From: Deltaproteobacteria bacterium
GTDB taxonomy: Bacteria; JAUYMQ01
DNA length: 7,336 nucleotides
Assembly (NCBI GenBank): GCA_030698575.1
Contig: JAUYMQ010000301.1
Coordinates: forward strand, 1 to 7,336
Reading direction: 5' to 3'
The position numbers were made by a program, and so were the translations under genes. Each line of letters starts with the position of its first letter. Positions within the stretch are counted from its first letter, which is position 1. This document shows positions 1,306 through 4,215 of the stretch, piece by piece. Below the pieces are notes generated by a model. That model had not been told where the DNA came from. It did not search any database and saw nothing but the letters and a program-made list of their open reading frames with translations.

Positions 1306-2754
1306 ATGCTCGATCCAAAACTCATCCGCGATGATTTCGAGACAGTCGAGAAGCGTCTGTCGTCGCGCGGCGAGATCCCCGCGCTTCGCGAGGTGCACGA
1401 GCTCGAAGTAGAGCGACGCCGGCGGATGCGGCACATCGAGGATCTGCAGAATCAGCGCAAGGTGCTCTCCGGCCTGCTGGCGCCGAAAGAGCTCGACAAG
1501 CTGGCGCCCACGCTCCCCGCCGTGCTCTCCGACGCGCTCAAGAAGAGCGACGAGCGACAGGCTGCCATCAGCGGAGGCGATGCGTCGCTCGAGGCGGCCC
1601 ACCGGGCTCACCGCGCCATGGTCGACGCGCTGGGCGAAGCCCGGAAGGGCGATCTCCAGGCCTTCGTGCGATCACAGCTTGGAAAACTCCTGAAGGAATT
1701 CTCGACGCACCTGAAGGACGCCGAAGGTTCGCTCAAGGACATCGAGGCGAAGGCCGCTGAACGTGCGCTCTGGATCCCCAACATGCCGCACGAGAGCGTC
1801 CCCGTGGGCGCCGACGCATCGGGCAACGTGGAGGTGCGCCGCTCGGGTGAACCGCCCGTCTATTCCTTCACGCCGAAGAACCACTGGGAGATCGCGGAGG
1901 CGCTCGGCATCATCGATTTCGAGCGAGCCGCGAAGATCTCCGGCGCCCGCTTCGTGGCCAACGTGGGGCTCGGCGCCCGGCTCGAGCGGGCGCTCCTGAA
2001 CTTCATGCTCGATCTGCACGTGCGGGATCACGGCTACACGGAGATCTTCCCGCCATTCATCGTCAACACGGAGAGCATGACGGGCACCGGGCAGTTCCCG
2101 AAGTTTGCGGACGATCAGTTCAAGATCGAAGGCCTCGAGATGCACCTGGTCCCGACGGCCGAGGTGCCGATAACCAATCTGCACCGCGACGAGATTTTGC
2201 CCGGCGAGGCGTTGCCGGTCGCCTACGTGGCCTATTCGGCCTGCTTCAGGAAGGAGGCGGGCGCTGCCGGGAAAGACACGCGCGGGCTCATGCGCCTGCA
2301 TCAGTTCAACAAGGTCGAGCTGGTGAATTTCACGGCGCCCGAGCAGAGCTACGACGCGCTGGAGCGACTGACCGCGAGCGCCGAGGAGGTTCTGAAGCGC
2401 CTCGGGCTGCCTTACCGGGTTGTGGAGTTGTGCACGGGCGATCTCGGGTTCGCGGCCGCCAAGACCTACGACATCGAATTGTGGTTTCCCGCGCAAGAGG
2501 TCTACCGCGAGGTCTCCTCTTGCTCGAACTACGAGGATTTCCAGGCGCGGAGGGCCTCGATTCGCTTCCGCGAGGGAGAAAAGGTCAAGCCCCGCCTCGT
2601 GCACACCCTGAACGGCTCCGGCCTGGCGGTCGGGCGCACGCTTGCCGCCATCCTCGAGAACTACCAGCAGCCGGACGGGACGGTTCGCGTTCCGGAGGCG
2701 CTCGTTCCGGCCATGGGCGTCGAAGTGATCCGTCCGCCCGGCGCCCCCGCCTAG
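1306..2754 (+). CDS. serS: Seryl-tRNA synthetase with enlarged N-terminal tRNA-binding arm
   Basis: Cytoplasmic class II synthetase that charges tRNA-Ser with serine using ATP (and tRNA-Sec where present). The 482-residue protein begins [14 protein letters not shown], the usual SerRS N-terminus, which decides the start at 1306; in-frame upstream codons would add 17 unrelated residues. A weak AGCGGA precedes the ATG. Residues 1-155 form the helical arm. The catalytic core starts at [12 protein letters not shown] (157-168). Motif 1 lies around 222-252. The TxE serine-binding element is T284-A285-E286. Motif 2 is FRKEAG (314-319) with RLHQFNKVE (330-338). Motif 3 is [21 protein letters not shown] without its last residue (434-452). 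All expected catalytic blocks are present. Typical bacterial SerRS is about 420-430 residues with the IPN element near residue 103. Here it is near 157, so roughly 50 extra residues lie within the arm, about 57-130. Four tRNA-Ser genes follow downstream. Confidence 0.97.
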
Positions 2755-2775
2755 TCTCTCCAGCGATCCCCTTGC

Positions 2776-2804
2776 TTGACGCAAACCCCGGTTAATGTTA
2801 AAAA
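2776..2804 (+). promoter_or_regulatory. Putative promoter of the tRNA-Ser/tRNA-Arg cluster
   Basis: TTGACG (2776-2781) is followed after 17 bases by TAAAAA (2799-2804), with an extended TG at 2796-2797. This lies just downstream of the serS stop, before the first tRNA-Ser gene, in a short AT-rich patch. It would give a leader of about 120 bases before tRNA-Ser(TGA). The -10 match is four of six, so confidence is moderate. Read-through from serS is not excluded because no clear terminator follows serS. Confidence 0.45.
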
Positions 2805-2869
2805 AATTCCTCGGGGCGAGTCAGGGATTCCCACCGGCTAGCATTGTTTCTCGCGTTTCATCACGGGCG

Positions 2870-2884
2870 AGCGGTCTGACCGCT
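2870..2884. repeat. 15-bp palindrome AGCGGTC-T-GACCGCT in the tRNA leader
   Basis: Two perfect 7-base arms flank one central T. It lies between the putative promoter and tRNA-Ser(TGA). It could be an operator or fold as a short hairpin in the leader; no T-tract follows, so it is not a classical terminator. Function is unknown. Confidence 0.4.
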
Positions 2885-2887
2885 TCT

Positions 2888-2905
2888 GACCCCGTTCCGG
2901 GGGTC
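2888..2905 (+). repeat. Short inverted repeat GACCCC / GGGGTC upstream of tRNA-Ser(TGA)
   Basis: Six-base arms (2888-2893 and 2900-2905) enclose GTTCCG. In RNA this gives a stable GC-rich hairpin just 3' of the 15-bp palindrome. The following bases are not U-rich, so it is at most a weak terminator or a leader structure. Confidence 0.35.
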
Positions 2906-2915
2906 GGGTCTCATT

Positions 2916-2927
2916 CTCGAATTCGAG
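2916..2927. repeat. 12-bp perfect palindrome CTCGAATTCGAG just before tRNA-Ser(TGA)
   Basis: The perfect self-complementary dodecamer ends four bases before the mature 5' end of tRNA-Ser(TGA). It might influence 5' processing or bind a protein, or be chance. Confidence 0.3.
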
Positions 2928-2931
2928 ATGC

Positions 2932-3017
2932 GGAGAGATGGCCGAGTGGTCGAAGGCGGCGGTCTTGAAAACCGTTAGGCGAAAGCCTCGGGGGTTCGAA
3001 TCCCTCTCTCTCCGCCA
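2932..3017 (+). tRNA. tRNA-Ser(TGA)
   Basis: Full class II cloverleaf. The acceptor stem is GGAGAGA (2932-2938) with TCTCTCC (3007-3013), discriminator G73, and encoded CCA (3015-3017). The D-arm is GCC/GGC. The anticodon stem GCGGT/ACCGT has loop CTTGAAA, giving anticodon TGA, which reads UCA and, by wobble, UCG. The long variable arm is TAGGCGAAAGCCTC, the serine identity feature. The T loop is TTCGAAT. It is the first tRNA after serS. Confidence 0.97.
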
Positions 3018-3063
3018 ATTTTCCCGACGTTACGCGCCGGCTACGGGCGAAGAGGCCTGCTCA

Positions 3064-3210: not shown

Positions 3211-3225
3211 GTTCATTGAGATTGA

Positions 3226-3302
3226 GCGCCCATAGCTCAGATGGATAGAGCGTTGCCCTGCGGAGGCAGAGGTCGCAGGTTCGAATCCTGCTGGGCGCAC
3301 CA
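3226..3302 (+). tRNA. tRNA-Arg(GCG)
   Basis: Class I cloverleaf. Acceptor GCGCCCA (3226-3232) pairs with TGGGCGC (3292-3298), then A73 and encoded CCA (3300-3302). D stem GCTC/GAGC. Anticodon stem TTGCC/GGCAG with loop CTGCGGA, which places GCG at 34-36. This reads CGC and, by wobble, CGU. The body resembles bacterial tRNA-Arg(CCG), but the loop clearly reads GCG. Most bacteria instead read CGN pyrimidine codons with ACG converted to inosine, so this is an uncommon anticodon. It is clustered with tRNA-Ser genes. Confidence 0.95.
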
Positions 3303-3307
3303 TACAT

Positions 3308-3330
3308 CAGGTGACCAGGTAACAGGTGAC
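3308..3330. repeat. Three tandem CAGGT-type units just after tRNA-Arg
   Basis: CAGGTGAC (3308-3315), CAGGTAA (3316-3322) and CAGGTGAC (3323-3330) lie head to tail, starting six bases past the tRNA CCA. This may be replication slippage, or a remnant of a duplicated or integrated end. No integrase or matching second copy is visible. Confidence 0.4.
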
Positions 3331-3486
3331 ACGAAGCGCTGATCGCGAGGCCCGTCGCGACAGCGCGTTCATTCAAGTCAGGGCTAACCGGAGGTCAGGC
3401 AGGGGTTTCCGGCGGGACTGCTGCTCCCAAACCGCGGGGCATCCCGCCGTCGCAAGCTCGTTTCCCTCGCCCTCTTCCGGTGGAAA

Positions 3487-3503
3487 CGCGGCCATGGGCC
3501 GCG
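3487..3503 (+). promoter_or_regulatory. Hairpin abutting the ribosome binding site of the 160-residue gene
   Basis: CGCGGCC (3487-3493) and GGCCGCG (3497-3503) are perfect 7-base arms around ATG. The second arm touches the GGGAGGGG ribosome binding site (3503-3510) of the gene starting at 3519. It may affect translation start or mark an upstream transcript end, but no T-tract follows. In the rest of 3303-3486 I see no gene and no clear promoter. Confidence 0.35.
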
Positions 3504-3518
3504 GGAGGGGGTCATTGC

Positions 3519-4001
3519 ATGGCGACCGAGGAGAAGGTGGGCACGGACTTGACGCTCGATGAAGCGCTCGACGGTTGGTCCAACCGGGCGCGCTACTGCT
3601 TCGAGTCGCTCAAGGAGGCCGTGCGAATATCGGGAGCGGAGTGGACGGGCATCATCTCCGCCTTCGGTCGCCAGCCCGTGCCGATTCTGAATTTCGGTGA
3701 CAAGAACGTCTGCCAGGTCTACCCGGACGGGGATCGGGTGGTTATCCAGATAATCCGCGGCGAGGATGTGCTCGAGGCGGTGAAGAAGGACCGGAAGCTG
3801 CCCGCCCACATGAAGCGCGCCTTCTCGGCGCCGGGCAAGCTCAACTTTCTCGCGGAGCTTCCGGTGACGGGCGTGGCCGACGCGCGGGCCGTCTCGTCGA
3901 TACTCACCATCAAGGCGGCGTGCCTCGGCGCGCGGACGACCACGGGCAAAGCCTTCAAGCGGCCGGCCCGCAAGTCCGCCGCCCATCGGAAAAGCCTTTG
4001 A
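3519..4001 (+). CDS. Hypothetical protein inside the tRNA-Ser array (possible DUF3788/DUF5655-like fold)
   Basis: 160-residue soluble protein with no signal peptide or membrane segment. ATG 3519 is chosen because GGGAGG lies about 10 bases upstream; an earlier in-frame start at 3480 would add 13 low-complexity residues and include the hairpin. An N-terminal helical part (11-40, LTLDEALDGW to LKEAVRISG) is followed by a tryptophan-containing beta-rich part (EWTGIISAFGRQ, about 41-52), then VCQVYPDGDRVVIQIIRGED (64-83). A helix LEAVKKDRKLP comes next, then FLAELPVTGVADARAVSSIL (110-129) and IKAA. The end (137-160) is basic and lysine/arginine-rich. This order of strands and helices recalls small DUF3788 or DUF5655-type proteins of unknown function, but I do not recognise it with confidence. 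The stop lies seven bases before tRNA-Ser(CGA), so the mRNA probably runs into the tRNA and is cut by RNase P. Confidence 0.7.
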   Translation: MATEEKVGTDLTLDEALDGWSNRARYCFESLKEAVRISGAEWTGIISAFGRQPVPILNFGDKNVCQVYPDGDRVVIQIIRGEDVLEAVKKDRKLPAHMKRAFSAPGKLNFLAELPVTGVADARAVSSILTIKAACLGARTTTGKAFKRPARKSAAHRKSL

Positions 4002-4008
4002 GTGATCC

Positions 4009-4099
4009 GGAGAGATGGCCGAGCTGGTTGAAGGCGCCTGACTCGAAATCAGGTGTACGGGTAACCGTACCGGGGGTTCGAATCCCTCTCTCTCCGCCA
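4009..4099 (+). tRNA. tRNA-Ser(CGA)
   Basis: Class II cloverleaf. GGAGAGA/TCTCTCC acceptor, G73 and encoded CCA (4097-4099). D stem GCC/GGC. Anticodon stem CCTGA/TCAGG, loop CTCGAAA, anticodon CGA, reading UCG only. The variable arm has a 6-bp GTACGG/CCGTAC stem with loop GTAA. T stem GGGGG/CCCTC includes one G-T pair. It starts seven bases after the preceding coding sequence. Confidence 0.97.
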
Positions 4100-4124
4100 T
4101 AATGTGATTTGAAGATTTACTCAC

Positions 4125-4215
4125 GGAGAGATGGCCGAGCGGCTGAAGGCACACGCCTGCTAAGCGTGCGTAGGGGAAAACTCTACCGAGGGTTCGAATC
4201 CCTCTCTCTCCGCCA
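4125..4215 (+). tRNA. tRNA-Ser(GCT)
   Basis: Class II cloverleaf. GGAGAGA/TCTCTCC acceptor, G73 and encoded CCA (4213-4215). Anticodon stem CACGC/GCGTG, loop CTGCTAA, anticodon GCT, reading AGC and AGU. The variable arm has a GTAGGG/CTCTAC stem. T stem GAGGG/CCCTC. It lies 25 bases after tRNA-Ser(CGA), completing a set that decodes all six serine codons. Confidence 0.97.

Follow-up and report, generated by a model that had tools for sequence, protein, structure and literature searches.

A stretch of DNA from a Deltaproteobacteria bacterium (7,336 nucleotides (nt), positions 1 to 7,336 of contig JAUYMQ010000301.1, assembly GCA_030698575.1; hereafter the window) carries serS, the gene for seryl-tRNA synthetase (SerRS), followed on the same strand by tRNA-Ser genes with the anticodons TGA, GGA, CGA and GCT. 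tRNA genes are usually scattered. Several bacteria that are only distantly related have the grouping too; it is therefore most likely an ancient cluster kept by inheritance rather than a local peculiarity, and the window is probably one variant of a translation cluster that has been passed down vertically.

The original prediction, that serS (1306..2754) is followed by tRNA-Ser(TGA) at 2932..3017, tRNA-Ser(GGA) at 3121..3210, tRNA-Ser(CGA) at 4009..4099 and tRNA-Ser(GCT) at 4125..4215, was confirmed by ARAGORN, Rfam and TIGR00414. The four tRNAs scored 58-61 bits each against the Rfam tRNA family and 95-105 bits against a tRNA-Ser covariance model built for this analysis. The acceptor stem GGAGAGA/TCTCTCC and G73 were, as predicted, common to all four sequences, CCA is encoded after G73 in each (ends TCTCTCC-G-CCA), and the variable arms are of normal length. 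By standard decoding rules the four anticodons jointly read the UCN and AGY codons. That the isoacceptor set is complete was also supported by a search of the whole assembly, a fragmented metagenome-assembled genome (MAG) of 4.13 Mb in 653 contigs. None of the 42 tRNAs recovered was a further tRNA-Ser, one missing gene being possible at 91.6% completeness, and the best other match to the covariance model in the assembly (76 bits) was a tRNA-Tyr. In contrast, the five tRNA-Leu isoacceptors of the same assembly are spread over five contigs. Because the tRNA-Ser set is exclusive to this locus, the observation is, within the assembly, stronger than first stated. Rfam matches of the window tRNAs to plastid untranslated region families and to sX4 were below the gathering scores and were rejected as reflecting the tRNA sequence only. 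Two Leu-like tRNAs with a long variable arm were also noted in the window genome (C376:3831-3917, L052; C176:8067-8153, L058). Their anticodon loops, CCCTCAA and CCCACAA, have C at position 33 and apparent anticodons CTC and CAC, a loop pattern seen in no other of 173 genomes.

To place the locus, serS neighbourhoods were compared in two samples. One comprised 80 named loci of GTDB genomes, those whose SerRS are closest; the other was a broad set of 120 serS loci whose genomes have only the domain in common with the window genome. All of the compared genomes lie outside the phylum of the window genome, so that the nearest comparison is one between phyla. The tRNAs were counted in an interval reaching from 1.5 kb upstream of serS to 6 kb downstream, and the counts are lower bounds, since some contigs end early. 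All four tRNA-Ser genes were near serS in 5 of the 120 sampled loci and in one named locus, L128, from the MAG Zod_Metabat.886. The full set beside its synthetase, which had been taken to be exceptional and might have been unique to this genome, is therefore present in at least six other genomes. The five sampled genomes (G083, G089, G028, G097 and G005) belong to five families.

The six loci (L147, L150, L163, L167, L178 and L128) share the content and nearly the order of the window, which argues for the inherited cluster. Each has a tRNA-Arg(NCG), the small RNA of the signal recognition particle (SRP) and dnaX, while ybaB is present in five of them and recR in four; the stretches of L167 and L178 end soon after dnaX or ybaB. 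The tRNA-Ser set is complete and exclusive there as well, the four best tRNA-Ser matches in each genome being the cluster genes and all other matches reaching at most 76 bits. Most of these clusters are ordered TGA-GCT-Arg-CGA-GGA, while the window has TGA-GGA-Arg-CGA-GCT. Less complete forms were also encountered. Three of the four isoacceptors were near serS in L195 and in Natroniella (L098, with duplicates), and the partial form serS-TGA-GCT occurs in Geobacterales and Aminicenantes. At least one tRNA-Ser was near serS in 30 of the 120 sampled loci, one or two being common, and in 25 of these 30 the TGA tRNA comes first after serS. Serine accounted for 56 of the 79 tRNAs near serS in the 120 genomes (binomial p 5e-38 against an assumed 10%), so chance does not explain the association. 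In the Natroniella sulfidigena locus (L098, 5863-7524) the TGA-GCT pair stands twice after serS with identical tRNA sequences, followed by tRNA-Arg(ACG), tadA and tRNA-Ser(GGA).

The local departure of the window from the other clusters concerns arginine. tRNA-Arg(GCG) (3226..3302, plus strand; ARAGORN, Rfam) starts 15 nt past tRNA-Ser(GGA) and is identical at 69 of 77 bases to the tRNA-Arg(ACG) of the G083 cluster; of the eight mismatches, seven fall within or beside the anticodon arm. In the three full clusters that have tRNA-Arg(ACG) (L150, L163 and L167), and in the Natroniella locus, tadA lies between this tRNA and the next tRNA-Ser. A tadA gene beside tRNA-Arg is absent from the window cluster and was present elsewhere only with the ACG forms. 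It was previously found that TadA deaminates A34 of tRNA-Arg(ACG), its sole tRNA substrate in bacteria (PMC3711424). No match to NF008113 was obtained in the window genome at E 1e-20, the weaker deaminase matches being larger proteins elsewhere. The window genome thus has tRNA-Arg(GCG), together with tRNA-Arg TCG and CCG, and lacks both tRNA-Arg(ACG) and a detectable TadA, the state of TadA-independent arginine decoding.

The same exclusion was apparent among the 173 genomes, where the exact pattern of tRNA-Arg(GCG) was found in 19, that of tRNA-Arg(ACG) in 84, both in none and neither in 70. None of the 19 GCG genomes had a detected TadA, versus 76 of the 84 ACG genomes (Fisher p 9e-15, a value that overstates independence, the genomes being related to varying degrees). 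In the eight ACG genomes with no TadA match at E 1e-20 (G022, G038, G044, G053, G056, G102, G126 and G156), the deaminase may have been missed, the genome may be incomplete, or the organism may be truly deaminase-free. A comparable replacement has been described in Mollicutes, which lost TadA and then changed tRNA-Arg from ACG to GCG (PMC3711424), and the window genome resembles them in having GCG in place of ACG and no TadA detected. However, Mollicutes have reduced, AT-rich genomes, whereas the window genome is GC-rich and 4 Mb in size and also has the TCG and CCG tRNAs; moreover, the GCG state occurs in 18 further sampled genomes from several other lineages.

In place of tadA the window has orf160 (3519..4001, plus strand), an open reading frame (ORF) for an orphan protein with no Pfam or NCBIfam match and no homologue in 172 other genomes. 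Its GC content at the three codon positions (0.63/0.48/0.87) resembles that of the neighbours and is the composition of a real gene. A purine-rich stretch lies upstream, and the frame ends 7 nt before tRNA-Ser(CGA). The possibility that orf160 is a diverged TadA was rejected, as it matched neither a deaminase nor any other family.

A further feature peculiar to the window is the SerRS itself. The 482-residue protein is canonical by its match to TIGR00414 (514 bits; cut-off 302), by PF00587 and PF02403, and by an AlphaFold model that matches solved SerRS structures (2dq3, E 5e-47). In known SerRS a helical N-terminal arm holds the long variable arm of tRNA-Ser. In the window protein 156 residues precede the IPN motif, compared with a median of 102 (range 79-138) in 131 other SerRS, making this the longest arm of the 132 compared. 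The approximately 54 extra residues (about residues 58-115, encoded by 1477..1650) lie at the tip of the tRNA-binding arm, in a region that is an alignment gap in 7 of 7 relatives. They were modelled as three short helices at a predicted local distance difference test score (pLDDT) of 60-70, the remainder being a standard SerRS. Neither the long arm nor orf160 occurs in any of the six full clusters.

The original prediction raised the question of coordinated supply of enzyme and substrate or, alternatively, of an origin by tandem duplication, one tRNA-Ser beside serS being copied in place and the copies changing their anticodons. The four genes do agree in the acceptor stem and over much of the T arm, and masking the anticodon leaves the GGA and CGA tRNAs 86% identical. 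However, with the anticodon masked, the nearest relatives of the window GGA, CGA and GCT tRNAs were the G083 tRNAs of the same anticodon (88.5, 89.8 and 89.0%), not each other. More generally, for 97 of 110 tRNA-Ser (the window tRNA-Arg, a 111th row, was excluded from the count) the nearest tRNA-Ser in another locus had the same anticodon. Since isoacceptors pair by anticodon across genomes, recent amplification with anticodon change is disfavoured. The same four isoacceptors also occupy this locus in other lineages, and the four acceptor stems are likewise identical in L150; shared recognition by SerRS or gene conversion would account for the common stems. A recent local duplication is consequently very unlikely. 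The orders of the G083 cluster (TGA-GCT-GGA-Arg-tadA-CGA) and of the window (TGA-GGA-Arg-orf160-CGA-GCT) are one move of the GCT tRNA apart.

From the gene content, order, recurrence and anticodon matching we infer descent from a common ancestral cluster. Its fullest form would have been serS - tRNA-Ser(TGA, GCT) - tRNA-Arg(ACG) - tadA - tRNA-Ser(CGA, GGA) - SRP RNA - dnaX - ybaB - recR. In the window lineage tRNA-Ser(GCT) would have shifted to the downstream end, the anticodon arm of tRNA-Arg would have changed from ACG to GCG, and tadA would have been lost, with an orphan ORF now in its place. The tRNAs may be made as a few short polycistronic units that are cut by tRNA-processing enzymes, and selection may keep the enzyme close to all of its tRNA substrates, or it may instead be weak or absent.

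Several observations weigh against such a cluster. In 90 of the 120 genomes the 6 kb downstream of serS contained no tRNA-Ser, in some of them because the contig ends; the internal order varies, with GCT, GGA and CGA changing places among genomes; and a scan of the window found no promoter-like site and no more terminators than in shuffled sequence. The variable order would also suit a cluster assembled independently several times under selection for serS-tRNA linkage, as would the preponderance of serine among the tRNAs near serS. Common descent is nevertheless indicated by the shared tRNA-Arg, SRP RNA and dnaX-ybaB-recR, which are unrelated to serine, and by the regular first place of the TGA tRNA, and repeated assembly appears improbable. 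A more serious alternative, though still doubtful, is that the proximity is a functionless, neutral remnant of ancestral order, or that the locus was spread whole by horizontal transfer. The many bacteria that have dispersed these genes favour it, and so does the position of ybaB between dnaX and recR, a known but functionally unexplained synteny (PMC2720974). On the other side, at least seven genomes have kept all of their serine tRNAs together, which would be hard by drift alone, and transfer requires the joint replacement of essential genes, although neither argument is decisive. The vertically inherited cluster remains the preferred reading.

As for expression, serS is separated from the first tRNA by 177 nt, in contrast to spacings of 7-25 nt within GGA-Arg and orf160-CGA-GCT (7 nt from orf160 to CGA, 25 nt from CGA to GCT). 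Judged from these spacings, cotranscription within each of the two groups is likely, and co-regulation of the closely spaced genes is plausible. The other tRNA gaps are 103 nt (TGA-GGA) and 216 nt (tRNA-Arg to orf160). A search of the window for a T-box leader (RF00230) gave no match up to E 1.

The original gene list, correct in its positions for serS and the four tRNA-Ser, had omitted tRNA-Arg(GCG), orf160 and all that follows tRNA-Ser(GCT). After a gap of 77 nt comes the bacterial small SRP RNA gene, ffs (4293..4391; RF00169, 74.6 bits, E 1e-15), and 42 nt further on dnaX, for the gamma/tau subunits of DNA polymerase III (4434..6191; TIGR02397, 443 bits), for which a longer alternative frame, starting at 4368, would run into the SRP RNA. 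The ybaB/ebfC gene (6239..6553; PF02575, E 5e-35; TIGR00103) and recR (6555..7154; TIGR00615, 240 bits) complete the series, which lies on the plus strand throughout from serS. Upstream, two divergent genes were seen on the minus strand (462-1172 and 45-443). The product of the first is a membrane protein whose domain is of the lycopene-cyclase type (PF18916, E 3e-11); the second had a weak match to Yip1, below the cut-off.

Parts of the arrangement are familiar. In Bacillus (L069 and L073) serS and tRNA-Ser(TGA) are likewise followed on one strand by tadA, dnaX, yaaK (ybaB) and recR. However, there is a single tRNA-Ser, 3-4 kb of other sequence precede tadA, and tRNA-Arg is absent there. The dnaX-ybaB-recR synteny, present in the window at 4434-7154, has been described without an upstream serine tRNA cluster (PMC2720974). 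In the literature searched, which mostly did not cover subscription papers, no description was found of serS, tRNA-Ser, dnaX and recR together, which is weak evidence of novelty, nor any account of a synthetase accompanied by all of the tRNAs for its amino acid. A serS gene with a nearby tRNA-Ser and the dnaX-ybaB-recR series are ordinary; the complete tRNA-Ser set, the exchange of GCG and tadA in place and the SerRS insertion are less so.

It is tempting to combine these features in a broader proposal, which can be advanced only tentatively: that linkage of the synthetase with every tRNA-Ser at one locus is ancestral in bacteria and is still under selection for coordinated dosage, and that tRNA-Arg/tadA is a cassette in which the GCG change and loss of the deaminase co-occurred, repeatedly and in place. 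The recurrence of the cluster in distant lineages offers a natural test of whether regulation or inheritance is what holds an enzyme and its substrate tRNAs together. The window cluster appears to keep traces of the GCG/tadA exchange where it took place, and the tRNA-Arg/tadA pair may show, at a single locus, how wobble-inosine decoding of the CGN codons was abandoned.

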